Below are positions 53,601-60,834 of a DNA stretch of 64,000 nt, in pieces. This DNA is from Kineococcus rubinsiae (lineage in GTDB: Bacteria > Actinomycetota > Actinomycetes > Actinomycetales > Kineococcaceae), in NCBI RefSeq assembly GCF_011839805.1, contig NZ_VWPY01000002.1, positions 186,001 through 250,000 on the forward strand. The letters run 5' to 3'. The stretch's first letter is position 1. Each line of letters starts with the position of its first letter. The notes under the pieces were generated by a model that worked only from the letters and a program-made list of their open reading frames with translations, was not told the DNA's origin and searched no databases. The position numbers were made by a program, and so were the translations under genes.

Positions 53601-54406
53601 TGGAAATGGTGAGGGGAGCCTCACCTCGGCCGCCGGTGCACCCGGCCCCGGGGTCGGAGGAGCTGCGGACGCGCACCCGGCTGCGCACGGCCGTGGCCGA
53701 GCACGGCCCGGTGACCGCCGGTGCGCTCGCGAGCCGGCTGGGCCTGACCAGCGCCGCGGTGCGCCGCCACCTGGACGCCATGACCGCCGAGGGCGTCGTG
53801 GAGACCCGCGAGCCGAGCCCGGCGCAGCGCCGCGGCCGCGGCCGCCCGGCGCGGGAGTACGTCGTGTCCTCCGCGGGCCACGACACGCTGCCGGCGGGCT
53901 ACGACGACCTGGCCCTGTCCGCGCTGGCCTACCTGGCCGAGGTGCAGGGCCCCGCGGCGGTGCAGGAGTTCGCCGAGCGCCGCCTCGCCGGCCTCGAGGA
54001 GCGCCTGGGCACCGCGGTGGCCGCGGCCGGCCCCGGCACGGAGGAGCGCGTGGCCGCCCTGGCCGCCGCGCTCACCGGCCAGGGCTACGCGGGCTCGGCC
54101 CGTCCCGTCGCCCGGGGAACAGCCTCGGAGGGCACCCAGTTGTGCCAGGGGCACTGCCCCGTGCGCCGCGCGGCGGAGGCCTTCCCCGAGCTGTGCGAGG
54201 CGGAGGCCAAGGTCTTCGAGCGGGTGCTGGGCACCCGGGTCCAGCGCCTCGCCACCCTGGCCCGCGGCGACCACGTCTGCACCACCTACGTGCCCTCCGA
54301 CCACCCCCCACCGGGTGCGACGACGGGCAGCACGACCAGCACGAGCACGACCCTCGCCGGCACCACCGCGGGGACAGCGACGCCGACGGAAGGACGACGA
54401 CGATGA
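53600..54406 (+). CDS. sufR: SUF operon iron-sulfur regulator SufR
   Basis: A 268-residue DeoR/ArsR-like winged-helix repressor. The HTH is [26 protein letters not shown] with wing [15 protein letters not shown]. The C-terminal cysteines in [21 protein letters not shown] and DHVCTTY are placed to hold a 4Fe-4S cluster, whose loss or gain tunes repression of the suf genes. GTG 53600 is chosen from the leaderless spacing; ATG 53591 in the same frame overlaps the -10. The tail is Thr/Ser/Gly-rich. The stop overlaps the sufB ATG (ATGA), so the regulator heads its own target operon. Confidence 0.92.
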
Positions 54407-55848
54407 CCACCGAACTCACCCCCGAGCTCGTCACCCCCGACACCACGGGACCCGCCGAGCTGGAGGGCATGGACAAGTACCGCTTCGGCTGGGCCGACTC
54501 CGACGTCGCCGGTGCGGCCGCCAAGCGCGGCCTGTCCGAGGCGGTCGTGCGCGACATCTCGGCGAAGAAGTCCGAGCCCGAGTGGATGCTGGAGCTCCGG
54601 CTCAAGGCGCTGAAGATGTTCGGCCGCAAGCCCATGCCCGACTGGGGTTCCGACCTCACGGGCATCGACTTCGACAACATCAAGTACTTCGTGCGCTCGA
54701 CGGAGAAGCAGGCCGCCACCTGGGACGACCTGCCCGCCGACATCAAGGAGACCTACGACCGCCTGGGCATCCCGGAGGCCGAGAAGCAGCGTCTCGTCTC
54801 CGGCGTCGCCGCCCAGTACGAGTCCGAGGTCGTGTACCACCAGATCCGGGAGGACCTCCAGGAGAAGGGGGTCATCTTCGTCGACACCGACACCGCCCTG
54901 CGCGAGCACGCGGACCTGTTCCGCGAGTACTTCGGCACCGTCATCCCCGCGGGCGACAACAAGTTCGCGGCGCTGAACTCCGCGGTGTGGTCCGGCGGGT
55001 CGTTCATCTACGTCCCCAAGGGCGTCCACGTCGACATCCCGCTGCAGGCCTACTTCCGGATCAACACCGAGAACATGGGCCAGTTCGAGCGGACGCTGAT
55101 CATCGCCGACGAGGACTCCTACATCCACTACGTCGAGGGCTGCACGGCGCCGATCTACCAGAGCGACTCGCTGCACTCCGCGGTCGTGGAGATCATCGTC
55201 AAGAAGAACGCCCGCGTGCGGTACACGACCATCCAGAACTGGTCGAACAACGTCTACAACCTGGTCACCAAGCGCGCTACGGCCGCCGAGGGCGCGACCA
55301 TGGAGTGGATCGACGGGAACATCGGCTCCAAGGTGACGATGAAGTACCCGGCGGTCTACCTGATGGGCGAGCACGCCAAGGGCGAGACGCTGTCGATCGC
55401 GATGGCCGGCGAGGGCCAGCACCAGGACGCCGGCGCGAAGATGGTCCACGCGGCGCCCTACACGGCGAGCTCGATCGTCTCCAAGTCGATCGCCCGCGGC
55501 GGTGGCCGCACGTCCTACCGCGGCCTGATCCAGGTCCTCGAGGGCGCGCACCACTCGGCGTCCACGGTGCGCTGCGACGCGCTGCTGGTCGACACGATCA
55601 GCCGCTCGGACACCTACCCCTACAACGACATCCGCGAGGACGACGTCGTCATGGGGCACGAGGCGACGGTCTCCCGCGTCAGCGAGGAGCAGCTGTTCTA
55701 CCTCATGAGCCGCGGCATGGCCGAGGACGAGGCCATGGCCATGATCGTGCGCGGGTTCATCGAGCCCGTGGCGCGCGAGCTGCCCATGGAGTACGCGCTG
55801 GAGCTGAACCGCCTGATCGAGCTGCAGATGGAAGGGGCCGTCGGCTGA
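54403..55848 (+). CDS. sufB: Fe-S cluster assembly protein SufB
   Basis: A 481-residue scaffold subunit of the SufBCD complex. It shows the SufB signatures [33 protein letters not shown], the beta-helix [21 protein letters not shown] and [21 protein letters not shown], with [20 protein letters not shown] near the C-terminus. It is a continuous frame with no intein, unlike the mycobacterial gene. ATG 54403 overlaps the sufR stop, and the stop overlaps the sufD start. Confidence 0.97.
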
Positions 55849-57140
55849 TGACCGCCGTCGACGAGACGACCGATCCGAACCCGACGGACCCGGTGACCGA
55901 GACCCCGGCCAACGGTGCGCGGGCGCACAGCCACGGCGCCGGCACGGTGCCGGACGCGAGCCGCGCGGAGCGGGTGACGTCCTACGACGTCGCCGACTTC
56001 GCCGTGCCCCGCGGCCGCGAGGAGGAGTGGAAGTTCTCCCCGCTGAAGGTGCTCGCGCCGCTGTTCGCCGAGGCCGCGGCCGACGCGGACGAGACCGCGC
56101 ACGTCGAGGTCTCCGGGCCGGACGCCGTGGAGCACCGCACCGGCACCCCCGCGGAGATCGGCGCCGGGGCTGGCTTCCGCCCGGGCGACCGCGCCGCGGC
56201 GGCCAGCTGGGCCGCGACCACGCAGGCCCACCTCGTGCGGATCCCCGCCGAGGCGGAGCTCGACGCGCCCGTGCTCGTCACGGTCCGCGGCGAGGCCGGT
56301 CGCACGACCTCCGGCCACCTGCTGATCGAGGCCGGCCACCACAGCAAGGGCCTCGTCGTGCTCGACCACGTCGGCGGCGGCGCCCACCGCGGCGGCGTGG
56401 AGGTGCGCGTCGGCGACGGCGCGCAGGTCACGGTCGTCTCCCTGCAGGAGTGGGACGACGACGCGATCCACGTCGGTCAGCACGACGTGCTGGTCGGGCG
56501 CGACGCGTTCGCCCGCCACATCGCCGTCAGCCTGGGCGGCAAGGCCGTCCGCATCTCGGCGAACCTGCGCTACGCGGGCCCCGGTGGGGACGCGCAGCTG
56601 CTCGGCGTCTACTTCGCCGACGCGGCCCAGCACCTGGAGCACCGCCAGTTCGTCGACCACGAGGCCACGAACTGCAAGAGCTACGTGGAGTACAAGGGCG
56701 CGCTGCAGGGCGAGGGCGCGCACGCCGTCTGGATCGGCGACGTGCTCATCCGCGCCGCCGCCGAGGGCACCGAGACCTACGAGCTGAACCGGAACCTGCT
56801 GCTGACCGACGGCGCGCGCGCCGACTCGGTGCCGAACCTCGAGATCGAGACCGGTGAGATCGTCGGCGCCGGTCACGCGAGCGCGACGGGACGCTTCGAC
56901 GACGAGCAGCTGTTCTACCTGCAGTCGCGCGGCATGCCCGAGGCCGACGCACGCCGCCTGGTCGTGCGCGGCTTCTTCGCCGACATCATCGGCCGGATCG
57001 GCCTGCCGGACCTGGCCGAGCGCCTGATGGCGACGATCGAGACCGAGCTGGCCGCGACGATGCCCGGCGCGCACGACGCGCTGCAGGCCGTGGCGACCGG
57101 CACGAGCACCACGACGCAGACCACGACTGAGGAGAACTGA
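55848..57140 (+). CDS. sufD: Fe-S cluster assembly protein SufD
   Basis: A 430-residue SufB homologue that pairs with it in SufBC2D and is needed for iron acquisition by the complex. An N-terminal tail of about 40 Thr/Pro/Ala-rich residues precedes the fold. Conserved stretches are RGREEEWKFSPLKVLAPLF, YVEYKGALQGEGAHAVWIGD, TYELNRNLLLTDGARADSVP and the C-terminal DEQLFYLQSRGMPEADARRL. ATG 55848 overlaps the sufB stop by one base; the stop overlaps the sufC ATG. Confidence 0.95.
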   Translation: MTAVDETTDPNPTDPVTETPANGARAHSHGAGTVPDASRAERVTSYDVADFAVPRGREEEWKFSPLKVLAPLFAEAAADADETAHVEVSGPDAVEHRTGTPAEIGAGAGFRPGDRAAAASWAATTQAHLVRIPAEAELDAPVLVTVRGEAGRTTSGHLLIEAGHHSKGLVVLDHVGGGAHRGGVEVRVGDGAQVTVVSLQEWDDDAIHVGQHDVLVGRDAFARHIAVSLGGKAVRISANLRYAGPGGDAQLLGVYFADAAQHLEHRQFVDHEATNCKSYVEYKGALQGEGAHAVWIGDVLIRAAAEGTETYELNRNLLLTDGARADSVPNLEIETGEIVGAGHASATGRFDDEQLFYLQSRGMPEADARRLVVRGFFADIIGRIGLPDLAERLMATIETELAATMPGAHDALQAVATGTSTTTQTTTEEN

Positions 57141-57898
57141 TGGCCACCCTGGAGATCCGCGACCTGCACGTCACCGTGGCCGAGGCCGACGGCGGCGTGA
57201 AGGAGATCCTGCGCGGCGTCGACCTGACCATCCGCTCCGGTGAGGTCCACGCGATCATGGGCCCGAACGGGTCCGGCAAGTCCACCCTGGCGTACTCGAT
57301 CGCCGGGCACCCCAAGTACACCGTCACGAGCGGTTCGGTCACGCTCGACGGCGAGGACGTCCTCGCGATGACCGTCGACGAGCGCGCCCGCGCGGGCCTC
57401 TTCCTGGCGATGCAGTACCCCGTCGAGGTCCCCGGCGTCACGGTGTCGAACTTCCTGCGCACCGCCAAGACCGCGGTCGACGGCGAGGCCCCCAAGCTGC
57501 GCACCTGGGTCAAGGACGTCAAGCAGGCGATGGACGACCTGCGCATGGACCCGACGTTCGCCGAGCGCAACGTCAACGAGAACTTCTCCGGCGGCGAGAA
57601 GAAGCGCCACGAGATCCTCCAGATGGAGCTGCTCAAGCCGAAGTTCGCCGTCCTCGACGAGACCGACTCCGGCCTCGACGTCGACGCGCTGAAGGTCGTC
57701 TCCGAGGGCGTCAACCGCTCGCTGGAGCGCACCGACGTCGGCGTGCTGCTGATCACGCACTACACGCGCATCCTGCGCTACATCAAGCCCCAGTTCGTCC
57801 ACGTGTTCGTCGACGGCCGCGTCGCCGAGCAGGGTGGCCCCGAGCTGGCCGACGCGCTCGAGGAGTCCGGCTACGACCGGTTCCTCGCCAAGGCCTGA
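57140..57898 (+). CDS. sufC: Fe-S cluster assembly ATPase SufC
   Basis: A 252-residue ABC-type ATPase that powers SufBD. It shows Walker A GPNGSGKST, the SufC Q-loop LAMQYPVEVPGV, signature NFSGGEKKRHEILQMELL, Walker B FAVLDETDSGLDVDAL and the switch histidine in LLITHYTRIL. It is a soluble protein without membrane partner. Only 10 bp separate it from sufT; the cysteine desulfurase (sufS) and sufU genes that usually come next are missing. Confidence 0.97.
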   Translation: MATLEIRDLHVTVAEADGGVKEILRGVDLTIRSGEVHAIMGPNGSGKSTLAYSIAGHPKYTVTSGSVTLDGEDVLAMTVDERARAGLFLAMQYPVEVPGVTVSNFLRTAKTAVDGEAPKLRTWVKDVKQAMDDLRMDPTFAERNVNENFSGGEKKRHEILQMELLKPKFAVLDETDSGLDVDALKVVSEGVNRSLERTDVGVLLITHYTRILRYIKPQFVHVFVDGRVAEQGGPELADALEESGYDRFLAKA

Positions 57899-57908
57899 GG
57901 AGCCGAGC

Positions 57909-58265
57909 ATGAGCGAGACGGAGACCCCCGCGGTCCAGGCACCGGCCGGCCCGACGCCCGCGGCGATCGCGGACATCGAGGAGGCGCTGAAGGACGTCGT
58001 CGACCCCGAGCTCGGGATCAACGTCGTCGACCTGGGCCTGATCTACGGCCTCAGCGTCACCGACGACAACGTCGTGACGATCGACATGACGCTCACGAGC
58101 GCGGCGTGCCCGCTCACCGACGTCATCGAGGACCAGACCCGCGAGGCCCTGCTGGACGTCGTGGCCGACCACCGCATCAACTGGGTGTGGATGCCGCCGT
58201 GGGGCCCCGAGAAGATCACCGACGACGGCAAGGAGCAGCTGCGCGCCCTCGGGTTCAACGTCTGA
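57909..58265 (+). CDS. sufT: SufT-like metal-sulfur cluster biosynthesis protein (MIP18/DUF59)
   Basis: A 118-residue DUF59 protein. The core is IEEALKDVVDPELGINVVDLGLIYG, then IDMTLTSAACPLTDVIEDQ with the single conserved cysteine, and a C-terminal VWMPPWGPEKITDDGKEQLR. Such proteins assist Fe-S cluster maturation. ATG 57909 opens a short disordered lead of about 25 residues. It is co-transcribed with sufRBDC and followed by a strong hairpin, so it closes the operon. Confidence 0.94.
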   Translation: MSETETPAVQAPAGPTPAAIADIEEALKDVVDPELGINVVDLGLIYGLSVTDDNVVTIDMTLTSAACPLTDVIEDQTREALLDVVADHRINWVWMPPWGPEKITDDGKEQLRALGFNV

Positions 58266-58298
58266 CCCGATGACCGCCGCGGCGCACCGCCGCAGCAC

Positions 58299-58334
58299 CG
58301 ACGGCCCGTGGAGCACCCGCTCCGCGGGCCGTCG
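58299..58334 (+). terminator. Terminator of the suf operon
   Basis: A 16 bp stem with one G-T pair (left arm CGACGGCCCGTGGAGC) and an ACCC loop, tail TGCGTCC. Confidence 0.85.
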
Positions 58335-58360
58335 TGCGTCCGGCGGGGCACGATCACGGG

Positions 58361-59563
58361 GTGCCCCTGCTCCCGCCCCCGCCGGCCGACCGCGACGACT
58401 GCGTCGACTGGGTCCGCACCCACCTCGGGCACCTCGCCTGCGACGACGTCGCCGCGTCCCCCGTGCGCGGCGGGCAGTCCGCCGCCGACACCGCGCTGGC
58501 CACCCTCGACCTGACCGGCTACGCCGCGAAGCGCAACGAGGTGCTGCCCCGCACCCGGCGCGGCGCGACCCGGCTCTCGCCCTACATCCGCCACGGCCTG
58601 CTGCCGCTGCCGGCCGTGTGGGCGGCCGCCGCGGACGCCCCGCCGCGCGACCGCGCGAAGTTCCGCGACGAGCTGCTGTGGCAGGAGTACGCCCGCCACC
58701 TCTACGCCCGGGTCGGGGCCGCGAACGCCCAGCCGCTGCGCTTCGAGGCGCCCGTGCCCGCGACGCCGTGGACGCGCGAGCCGTGGCCGGAGGAGATGGC
58801 CTGCATGGCCGCGACGACGCAGGAGCTGCACGAGGACGGGTGGCTGGTGAACCAGACCCGGATGTGGCTGGCGTCGCAGTACTCCGTGCGGGCCGGCGGC
58901 GACTGGCGCGAGGGCGCGGTGGAGATGTACCGCCACCTCCTGGACGGCTCCGCTGCCGCCAACCGCCTCGGCTGGCAGTGGGCGGTCGGGACCGGGACCG
59001 GGAAGGTCTACGGGTTCAGCCGCTGGCAGGTGGAGAAGCGCGCCCCGGGGCTGTGCCGCTCGTGCGCGCTGCGCACGGCCTGCCCCGTCCAGGAGTGGCC
59101 CGACGCCGAGACCGGCCCGCGCGTCGAGCCGCCCGCCGGCCTCGCCGGTGGCCCTTCCGGCCCCGGGGGCGACCTGCAGGGCCCGGCCACCGTCGAGACC
59201 ACGGGGGAGCCGGACACCGTGTGGCTGACCGCGGAGTCCCTCGGCGACACCGATCCCGCGCTGCTCGCCCACCCGGACCTGCCCGCCGTGTTCGTCCTCG
59301 ACGAGCCGCTGCTGGCCCGGCTGCGCCTGTCCGGCAAGCGGCTGGTCTTCCTCTCGGAGACCCTCGCCGAGCTCGGGGTCGAGGTGCGCCGGGGCGACCC
59401 CGTCGAGGAGCTGCGGGGGCGTCGCCTGGCCGTCACGCACGCCCCCGTCCCCGGCTTCGCGCGCCGTGCCAGGAGCCTGGACGTCGTCGAGACCCACCCG
59501 TGGCCGTGGCTGCGCCGCCCCGGCAGCGGCTCGCTGCGCTCGTTCAGCGCCTGGGCGCGCTAG
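58361..59563 (+). CDS. Photolyase/cryptochrome-like flavoprotein with permuted domains and four cluster-like cysteines
   Basis: A 400-residue protein. Residues about 35-248 are a photolyase FAD-binding domain: VRGGQSAADTALATLDL, TRLSPYIRHGL, FRDELLWQEYARHLY, GWLVNQTRMWLASQ, GDWREGAVEMYRHLLDGSAA and NRLGWQWAVGTGTG. The antenna-type alpha/beta domain that normally comes first appears instead at residues 285-400 in short form (VWLTAESLGDTDPALLAHP, LVFLSETLAELGVEVRRGDP, SLRSFSAWAR). C148, C232, C235 and C241 match the spacing of the 4Fe-4S cysteines of bacterial (6-4)-type FeS photolyases. GTG 58361 is 6 nt after CACGAT; GTG 58334 is an alternative. DNA repair or light sensing is inferred. Confidence 0.8.
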   Translation: MPLLPPPPADRDDCVDWVRTHLGHLACDDVAASPVRGGQSAADTALATLDLTGYAAKRNEVLPRTRRGATRLSPYIRHGLLPLPAVWAAAADAPPRDRAKFRDELLWQEYARHLYARVGAANAQPLRFEAPVPATPWTREPWPEEMACMAATTQELHEDGWLVNQTRMWLASQYSVRAGGDWREGAVEMYRHLLDGSAAANRLGWQWAVGTGTGKVYGFSRWQVEKRAPGLCRSCALRTACPVQEWPDAETGPRVEPPAGLAGGPSGPGGDLQGPATVETTGEPDTVWLTAESLGDTDPALLAHPDLPAVFVLDEPLLARLRLSGKRLVFLSETLAELGVEVRRGDPVEELRGRRLAVTHAPVPGFARRARSLDVVETHPWPWLRRPGSGSLRSFSAWAR

Positions 59564-59673
59564 GACCCGCGGCCGGCACCGCGGCCGGGCGTTCAGCCGG
59601 GCCCCCCACCGGCCGATGATCCGTTGGTCCCCGCGGTCCACCAGCAGGCCGGGGGCGAGGCGAGAGGTCGGAC

Positions 59674-60834
59674 GTGAACCCCCTGCGGCGTCGGCGCGCC
59701 GCGGCCCCCGACGGGAGGCCGCGGGCCGTGACGACCCCTCCTGCCCTGCGGGCCGCCCCGGCGCCCGCCCCGGGGGGCGCCGACCACCTGGCCGTGCGCG
59801 GGTCGCCCGCGAACCGGCGCTGGGACGGGCGGGCCACCGTCCTCATGGCCGCGCCCGGGTCGCTGGTGCTGCTCGGTCTCGCGCCCTTCGTGCCGGCGCA
59901 CGGGCTCATGCTGCTGGCGGCCCTGGGCGCCGCCGTGGTGGCGGTCTGGGCCCACCTGACCCCGGTCGGGGCGCCCGCGTGGGTGCGGGCGGGGTACTCG
60001 GCGTTCGCCGCCGCGGTCCTCGTCGCGGGCACCGCGGCCGCGGAGTCGCTGCCGTCCCTCGACATCGGCTCGATCGCGCTCCTGTCGCCCGTGCTCGTCA
60101 TCGCCATGACCCGCTCGCGCCGCGAGATCGTCCTGCAGCTGGCGTGGCAGCAGCTCGTGTGGGGCGGCTACCTGCTGAGCACGGGACCCGCGCAGCGCGC
60201 CGTCGTCGGGGTGGTCGTCAGCGCCAGCGTGCTGGGGCTCGTGGCGGGCTGCACCAGCTGGCTGCGGGGGCTGGTCGAGACCGCGCTGCGGGAGCTCACC
60301 GACAGCGCAGGCCGCGACCCGCTCACGGGCCTGCTGAACCGCCGCGGCCTCGCCGCGGCGCCGGCGGCCACGCCGTCCTGCTGGCTGCTGCTGCTCGACC
60401 TCGACCACTTCAAGCGCATCAACGACGAGCACGGCCACGCCGTCGGTGACGAGACGCTCGTCTGGTTCGCGGACCTGCTCAGCGCCGGCACGCGACCCGG
60501 CGAGGTCGCGGCCCGCATCGGCGGGGAGGAGTTCGTGCTGCGGCTGCCCGCCGGGGTCGACGCGGCCGCGCGCGCCGAGGAGCTGCGGGCCGCGGTGGCG
60601 TCGCCGTCGCAGGACCGCCCGGTGCCCGTGACCGTGAGCATCGGCGTCGCCGGCGGCGGGTGGGCGCAGCTGCCGGAGGTCCTGGCGGCCGCCGACGCCG
60701 CCCTGTACGCCGCCAAGCGGGCCGGACGCGACCGCGTCGTGCTGGCGCCCGCCGACGCCGGTGCCGCGGACACCGCCGACGTCACCGTCGCGGCGACCCC
60801 CGGGGAACGGCGCACCCACCGCGCCCGCCCCTGA
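59674..60834 (+). CDS. Membrane-anchored diguanylate cyclase (GGDEF)
   Basis: A 386-residue protein. The N-terminal 55 residues are basic and Pro/Ala-rich, then about five hydrophobic segments (residues about 55-205) form a membrane sensor region of no recognised family. A GGDEF domain follows: GRDPLTGLLNRRGL, LLLLDLDHFKRINDEHGHAVGD and the active-site RIGGEEFVLRL, so it should make cyclic di-GMP. The allosteric I-site reads RPGE rather than RxxD, so product inhibition may be weaker. GTG 59674 has a GAGAGG site upstream. No phosphodiesterase is adjacent. Confidence 0.9.
   Translation: MNPLRRRRAAAPDGRPRAVTTPPALRAAPAPAPGGADHLAVRGSPANRRWDGRATVLMAAPGSLVLLGLAPFVPAHGLMLLAALGAAVVAVWAHLTPVGAPAWVRAGYSAFAAAVLVAGTAAAESLPSLDIGSIALLSPVLVIAMTRSRREIVLQLAWQQLVWGGYLLSTGPAQRAVVGVVVSASVLGLVAGCTSWLRGLVETALRELTDSAGRDPLTGLLNRRGLAAAPAATPSCWLLLLDLDHFKRINDEHGHAVGDETLVWFADLLSAGTRPGEVAARIGGEEFVLRLPAGVDAAARAEELRAAVASPSQDRPVPVTVSIGVAGGGWAQLPEVLAAADAALYAAKRAGRDRVVLAPADAGAADTADVTVAATPGERRTHRARP

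Follow-up and report, generated by a model that had tools for sequence, protein, structure and literature searches.

The gene and its surroundings

The window, that is, the whole stretch of 64,000 nucleotides of Kineococcus rubinsiae DNA that was analysed, contains near its end an open frame for a protein of the short photolyase-like (SPL) type, in which a helical FAD domain comes first and an antenna-type domain follows after a linker (Table 1).

Table 1. Features of the SPL locus, in window positions
Feature	Position	Strand	Basis
CDS of the 400-aa inverted short photolyase-like (SPL) protein	58361..59563	+	GTG 58361, TAG 59561-59563; open frame
Residues 1-250, helical photolyase FAD domain with candidate Fe-S region	58361..59110	+	Pfam, AlphaFold2, VIA
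Gln108, at the Arg287 position of Anacystis nidulans photolyase (listed FAD contact)	58682..58684	+	Alignment
Cys148, first of four candidate [4Fe-4S] ligands	58802..58804	+	Conservation; match to C169 of RS9916 Phr4
Ser197, at the Asp382 position of A. nidulans photolyase (listed FAD contact)	58949..58951	+	Alignment
Cys232, Cys235 and Cys241 (C-x2-C-x5-C), candidate [4Fe-4S] ligands	59054..59083	+	Conservation; RS9916 Phr4 spacing
Residues 251-282, Gly/Pro-rich linker	59111..59206	+	Sequence; low model confidence
Residues 283-400, shortened photolyase antenna-type alpha/beta domain, five strands	59207..59560	+	Predicted fold, profiles
15-bp hairpin in the stretch that separates the SPL gene from the upstream DUF59 gene	58300..58333	+	Folding of the intergenic stretch

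An upstream in-frame stop leaves 29 codons before the SPL start, with ATG, GTG or TTG at 58334 and 58361 only, and an in-frame fusion to an N-terminal antenna domain is therefore impossible. A GTG codon with the motif M-P-x-L lies at the same start point in 8 of 14 aligned rows of relatives from the 59-genome search described below. The frame does open at the FAD domain, as the earlier note had claimed, and the motifs which it quoted are all present at about the residues it gave: GGQSAADTALATLDL from residue 37, SPYIRHGL at 73-80, NRLGWQWAVG at 201-210 and, beyond the linker, VWLTAESLGDTDPAL at 287-301, VEVRRGDP at 340-347 and SFSAWAR at 394-400. The AlphaFold2 model of the whole protein, with 52 sequences as input, has a mean pLDDT of 94.4; confidence is lowest in the linker (residues 261-270, mean 67).

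Directly upstream, at about 54100-58265, lies what we take to be a suf (Fe-S assembly) cluster, with SufB- and SufD-like genes named by eye, sufC and the DUF59 gene. A diguanylate-cyclase-like gene (GGDEF, also named by eye) is found just downstream at 59674-60834. A link to Fe-S assembly as a conserved feature of SPL genes was considered and rejected. Among 94 loci (89 distinct places, five pairs sharing the same DNA), scanned over flanks of 1.5 or 3 kb, some ended by contig ends, close SufC (98-100%) and DUF59 (94-100%) neighbours occur in three, which are two places: our own locus and that of Kineococcus siccus (L002 = L031). In five other congeners (L003-L007) neither gene lies within 1.5 kb of the locus. 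Weak SufC-like matches of 26-33% in four other loci look like other ABC proteins, and GGDEF-like matches of about 40% were seen in two more; none of the three neighbour genes tested is conserved across the loci. Folding of the intergenic stretch (58266-58360) gives a very stable hairpin with no T-run, at -66.5 kcal/mol and z -5.15, which is possibly the end of the suf transcript. Neither a T-run terminator nor a sigma-70-like promoter was found in 58200-59700.

The genome carries three kinds of photolyase. A protein with the usual domain order, encoded on contig C31, groups with the class I-type rows of the tree presented below, and the one match to PF04244, the PhrB-type family, lies on C69; in the SPL protein this family has no match up to E 1. 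With just two PF03441 matches in the whole genome, no DASH-type gene was seen. According to the excerpted text of PMC9178010, Synechococcus elongatus likewise combines class I, FeS-BCP and SPL enzymes.

The FAD domain and the candidate Fe-S ligands

Residues 102-217 match the Pfam-A family FAD_binding_7 [PF03441, E 4e-11, 43 bits against a cut-off of 27] over profile positions 2-125 of 203, and the same family was found in all 52 aligned SPL relatives (for reasons of size, 29 of the best 80 loci were left out of this alignment by hand). The SPL protein thus belongs to the photolyase/cryptochrome superfamily. In a profile search of the PDB the class I CPD photolyases came closest [1owl, 4.7e-19], with the (6-4) photolyase PhrB far behind [4dja, 1.5e-4], and Foldseek, run with the whole model against solved structures, ranked the Thermus class I enzyme first, above any Fe-S photolyase. 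The best VIA rows for residues 1-250 are PhrB [5kcm, Z 16.8], the Vibrio (6-4) photolyase [7ykn, Z 16.4] and the Thermus photolyase [1iqr, Z 15.8], which are tied, rows within Z 1 being counted as ties; the first two are Fe-S enzymes.

The active site was mapped by alignment to the Anacystis nidulans enzyme, by the multiple alignment and by the list of 13 flavin contacts in the excerpted text of PMC9426592. Eight of the contacts are identical in the SPL protein, namely Y54, L72, S73, W161, N164, D195, A200 and N201; for W161 the published list prints T346, the aligned Anacystis residue is Trp, and Trp was taken. Six of these are invariant in the 52 sequences (Y54, S73, N164, D195, A200 and N201), W161 is kept in 49 and L72 in 34. 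The remaining five contacts are changed (Anacystis numbering): T240 to Ala, S241 to Thr, W280 to Phe, R287 to Gln and D382 to Ser. At the S241 position the family has Ser in 35 and Thr in 17 sequences; at T240 it has Ala in 51 of 52, and 11 other inverted rows do not have Thr there either. The change of W280 to Phe or Tyr was dropped as a departure, Trp being present in just 4 of 20 classical rows. The two deviations that stand out are those of D382 and R287. The former is Ser in 52/52 aligned sequences and, in a comparison of 45 rows, Ser in 13/13 rows of the SPL clade and Asp in 32/32 outside it; the latter is Gln in 51 of 52 (Ala in one) and, outside the clade, Arg in 31 of 32 rows, with Asn in that of Natronomonas. 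Among the 45 rows, both changes are specific to the SPL clade, and an altered flavin pocket is possible.

E104, W107, R167, W182 and W205 are all invariant in the 52 SPL relatives. From the work on E. coli and Anacystis photolyases we take their roles to be CPD binding and electron transfer, E104 and W107, together with N164, presumably being the contacts to the CPD substrate. The earlier note had seen a possible change of catalysis in a GTD motif of the FAD domain that reads GTG here. Its Asp position varies within the family (G 40, S 5, A 3, N 2, D 1, T 1), and the reading as a catalytic change was rejected; E104, W107, N164, R167, D195 and N201 are kept in every sequence.

Four cysteines, absent from that note, are likewise invariant in 52/52 sequences: Cys148, Cys232, Cys235 and Cys241. 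Their pattern, C-x83-C-x2-C-x5-C (steps 84/3/6), differs by one residue in the first gap from the C-x84-C-x2-C-x5-C (85/3/6) of RS9916 Phr4, whose Fe-S cysteines are given as C169, C254, C257 and C263 in the excerpted PMC9426592; the likeness rests on these published positions. All four are present in the 13 clade rows and in the four Deinococcus rows of the 45-row comparison; in the 28 other rows the sole Cys at any of these positions is at the first, in one alphaproteobacterial row. The protein therefore carries the four cysteines of the Fe-S subgroup (SPL, Phr4/Phr6), and by homology it would bind a [4Fe-4S] cluster, the role of which is most likely structural.

The C-terminal antenna-type domain

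The part of the protein behind the linker finds no match in Pfam up to E 1, and the antenna family DNA_photolyase matches only two of the 52 aligned members, weakly [best 0.016]. Folded alone, residues 278-400 gave a model of mean pLDDT 88.1 with five strands alternating with helices. When this model was compared by VIA, photolyases and cryptochromes filled 50 of the 50 listed rows, 48 of them within chain residues 1 to about 170, the antenna domain, and two extending to 294 and 309; examples are Rhodobacter CryB (Z 8.9, 3.2 Å over 118 residues) and E. coli photolyase (Z 8.8, 2.8 Å over 117). Since Z values of 8-9 are barely above the 7-8 often reached by models without a clear match, and since VIA realigns only Foldseek's 1000 best and many of the rows repeat MmCPDII, CraCRY or Anacystis, the weight lies on the uniform identity of the rows and on their full coverage. 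Foldseek itself found nothing at E 0.001 for this domain [best 4.2e-3, with class II photolyases and mouse CRY2 on top].

Profile comparison with hhalign gave a score of 38.6 against class I-like N-terminal domains (83%; 86% under other settings), and none of 100 column shuffles reached it, the highest being 21.7. No profile match was seen between the C-terminal domain and the FAD domain. Relatives from Deinococcus, with the same domain order and a collinear HMM match, form a bridge: the SPL C-terminal domain matches theirs at 99.2%, and theirs matches the class I-like antenna domain at 94.6%. Two of the Deinococcus proteins match Pfam DNA_photolyase directly, both below the cut-off [P0001, residues 301-395, 0.001; P0003, 2e-4].

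A fused upstream N-terminal domain in related genomes, which the earlier note had named as a finding that would speak against it, was looked for in the 94 loci, and no ordinary antenna domain was found. The search covered 5301 open frames, from these loci, from 55-62 kb of the window and from controls; at default filters and E 0.1 the HMM of ordinary antenna domains reported only two positive controls, themselves among the sequences used to build it, and missed the SPL C-terminal domain. Because of this miss, what is excluded near the SPL loci is an ordinary antenna gene, a diverged one lying outside that exclusion. With the filters off, the 10 best printed rows below the controls were SPL frames without exception [best E 0.0024], and the weak signal of this HMM thus points to the SPL proteins themselves. 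When domain order was tested by HMM, the SPL C-terminal part found a second match in the first 130 residues of 11 of 21 proteins of classical type [-1.9 to 6.1 bits], a DASH and a haloarchaeal protein being among them; reversed sequences scored no higher than 2.4 bits and never matched at that place, and the test is suggestive only.

That an unrelated Rossmann-like domain has come to resemble the antenna domain by convergence would agree with the silence of Pfam on this part and the two faint DNA_photolyase matches, with Foldseek's best of 4.2e-3, with the failure of the antenna HMM at default filters and with Z values little above those of no-match models. It is hard to reconcile with VIA rows that are photolyases or cryptochromes throughout and over nearly the whole domain, many repeats notwithstanding, with a profile score well beyond all the shuffles, with the rank of SPL frames directly behind the controls once filters are off, and with the Deinococcus bridge, and we give convergence hardly any credence. 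The reading of residues 285-400 as the missing N-terminal half, together with the fold check proposed for it, has thus fared well: by profile and by predicted structure, residues from about 283 to 400 are homologous to the antenna domain of photolyases, in reduced form and placed after the FAD domain, and provide by predicted fold the C-terminal accessory domain of SPLs and NewPHLs.

Relatives, placement and likely function

Full-length relatives with the same domain order are encoded in 14 of 59 genomes, these being our own and relatives up to the order: in 7 of 11 within the genus (our own included) and in 7 of 48 elsewhere, one genome having two. The best match in each other genome is 66-87% identical. 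Given this recurrence and the mere 29 codons upstream, the permuted order claimed by the earlier note is real. In named genomes, scanning confirmed 326 relatives. The best 80 comprise 79 with names of actinobacteria and a single Myxococcota MAG; the closest named relative among them is Kineococcus siccus (86%), and Rhodococcoides species, to which the former Rhodococcus fascians now belongs, are included. On viral contigs 73 pattern matches yielded no confirmed relative, and in phages ten records showed partial FAD-domain matches only, covering at most 38% of the query.

The unrooted tree of the FAD domain comprises 45 rows and 234 columns; rows were labelled classical from their start motif or record annotation, and row L017 was dropped for having no classical start motif in an open frame. 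The SPL clade contains 13 rows (100/100), among them the Rhodococcoides members, and is joined by the inverted proteins of Deinococcus at 93/86, these being set apart by a single branch in 34% of the 200 bootstrap trees. The classical group has 20 rows (99/92) and the alphaproteobacterial one six (100/100). Alphaproteobacterial and Persicobacter rows stand between the SPL/Deinococcus group and DASH plus classical (98/97), so that it is only against DASH plus classical that the inverted rows fall together, the alphaproteobacterial rows lying beyond the Deinococcus branch. DASH, Natronomonas, Persicobacter, Thermus and Deinococcus QL22 have long branches and unsure places. On this tree one change of domain order, in either direction, would suffice.

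In Deinococcus sp. QL22 [plasmid NZ_CP097153.1, 1396-2687, L114] the two parts are separate genes with a 4-base overlap, one for a FAD part of 257 aa that has four cysteines, the other for an antenna-type part of 173 aa [DNA_photolyase, E 2e-4, below the cut-off]; this split pair parallels cyanobacterial phr4/phr5. A plasmid of Persicobacter psychrovividus (L123) carries a short photolyase of inverted type that is unannotated and lacks the four cysteines, and another photolyase/cryptochrome-like frame overlaps the end of that gene in a different frame. Near the alphaproteobacterial inverted proteins we noted DUF3429 genes in three cases and AarF/ABC1 kinase genes in two.

Contrary to the earlier note, which knew of no described photolyase with such a layout, inverted proteins have been published, as NewPHL/SPL and as Phr4-Phr5/Phr6 (PMC13274461, PMC9649867 and PMC9426592, each in excerpt), and the gene has the look of a typical actinobacterial representative of a class already known. 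Class I CPD enzymes have an N-terminal antenna domain and then the FAD domain, an order that is reversed here; in our protein the FAD domain comes first and no antenna domain precedes it, as in SPLs and NewPHLs. SPLs, summarised in PMC9649867 (excerpt) as short, without an N-terminal alpha/beta domain and with an Fe-S cluster, resemble it in length, in lacking that N-terminal domain and in the Rhodococcoides members of its clade; that summary has the alpha/beta domain as absent, whereas a reduced copy lies here at the C-terminus. With cyanobacterial Phr4-Phr5 and Phr6, for which PMC9426592 gives, in the excerpted text, reverse domain order and Fe-S cysteines, it shares the FAD domain in first place, a photolyase domain in second and four cysteines at near-equal spacing, Phr4-Phr5 of marine Synechococcus being two adjacent genes and the Kineococcus SPL one.

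NewPHLs share an N-terminal catalytic FAD domain, a C-terminal accessory domain, the Asn facing N5 (conserved according to the excerpted PMC12083526) and a Trp dyad, as in the Dinoroseobacter NewPHL (PMC8948257, excerpt). They differ in that the plasmid-borne alphaproteobacterial rows, which stand in here for the tested NewPHLs as presumed orthologues by layout and taxonomy, do not have the four cysteines and possess a C-terminal domain without a profile match to that of the SPL protein (0.2%, a value that alone is not decisive against the Phr7 type); nor does their domain match the ordinary antenna domain by profile (0.8%). Phr7-type NewPHLs, described in the excerpted PMC9426592 as an FAD domain plus a Z-domain, are without Fe-S cysteines, which our protein has. 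FeS-BCP or PhrB-type (6-4) photolyases have in common with it the Fe-S cysteines and the FAD-domain fold; unlike it they possess an N-terminal antenna domain of the PF04244 type, their sequence similarity to it is much weaker, and the genome holds a separate PF04244 member.

We therefore regard the SPL protein, with considerable confidence, as an Fe-S short photolyase-like protein of the inverted-topology (NewPHL) group and as a probable CPD photolyase. From its relatives, and from work on other photolyases, the N-terminal domain would bind FAD, and its Cys148, Cys232, Cys235 and Cys241 would by homology hold a [4Fe-4S] cluster. The shortened, relocated C-terminal domain most likely packs against the FAD domain and seals it, as the C-terminal domain of NewPHL reportedly does (Emmerich 2020), and probably retains little or no ability to bind an antenna chromophore. 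FADH-, photoreduced through Trp205 and Trp182, would be excited by blue or UV-A light, and the excited flavin would give an electron to a CPD held by Glu104, Trp107 and Asn164, by which the dimer would be split. Xu (2021) is said to have found FAD, an Fe-S cluster and CPD repair in the SPL of Rhodococcus fascians. Single-stranded DNA is perhaps the preferred substrate. Repair of CPDs in single-stranded DNA is reported, with inverted topology, for NewPHLs and SPLs in the excerpted PMC13274461, where UniProt A8LJA9 and M7YZC8 are the NewPHLs named, and this specificity may not carry over, since the alphaproteobacterial stand-ins for NewPHL have no cysteines and an unmatched C-terminal domain.

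Against assignment to the Fe-S inverted CPD enzymes stand the two clade-wide changes of flavin contacts, Ala at T240 in 51 of 52 sequences and the Thermus class I enzyme as Foldseek's nearest structure. It is improbable, in our estimate, that the protein is instead an Fe-S (6-4) photolyase like FeS-BCP/PhrB with its domains rearranged. The four candidate Fe-S cysteines would suit such an enzyme, as would the PhrB and Vibrio rows that head the VIA result for the FAD domain; those rows tie with that of Thermus, which Foldseek puts first, the sequence profile is closest to class I CPD enzymes, the class I-type CPD contacts (with the roles assumed above) are retained, and the genome already has a PhrB-type protein. 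We think just as little of the chance that it binds FAD without repairing DNA and acts, cryptochrome-like, as a light or redox sensor: the clade-wide changes of D382 to Ser and R287 to Gln in the flavin pocket speak for it, but E104, W107 and N164, presumably substrate contacts, never vary in the 52 sequences, no other Pfam domain is present, none of the tested neighbours accompanies the gene across loci, and a relative in the same clade reportedly repairs CPDs.

CPD repair by an Fe-S inverted photolyase remains the preferred reading. It is conceivable, if rather unlikely, that the actinobacterial clade consists of functionally shifted members of that class, the changes of D382 to Ser and R287 to Gln and the reduced antenna domain bringing a different flavin redox chemistry and perhaps another range of lesions or light. 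On that less likely reading, SPLs would moreover carry the antenna domain relocated rather than absent, and would stand one rearrangement away from the classical photolyases. What the present case adds is a link, by sequence and predicted structure, from the C-terminal domain of Fe-S SPLs to the classical antenna domain, for which Deinococcus proteins serve as the bridge, together with two flavin-pocket positions that are changed throughout the clade. Each of these findings is relevant to the debate in print over an ancestral standing of SPL-type enzymes with respect to photolyases and cryptochromes.
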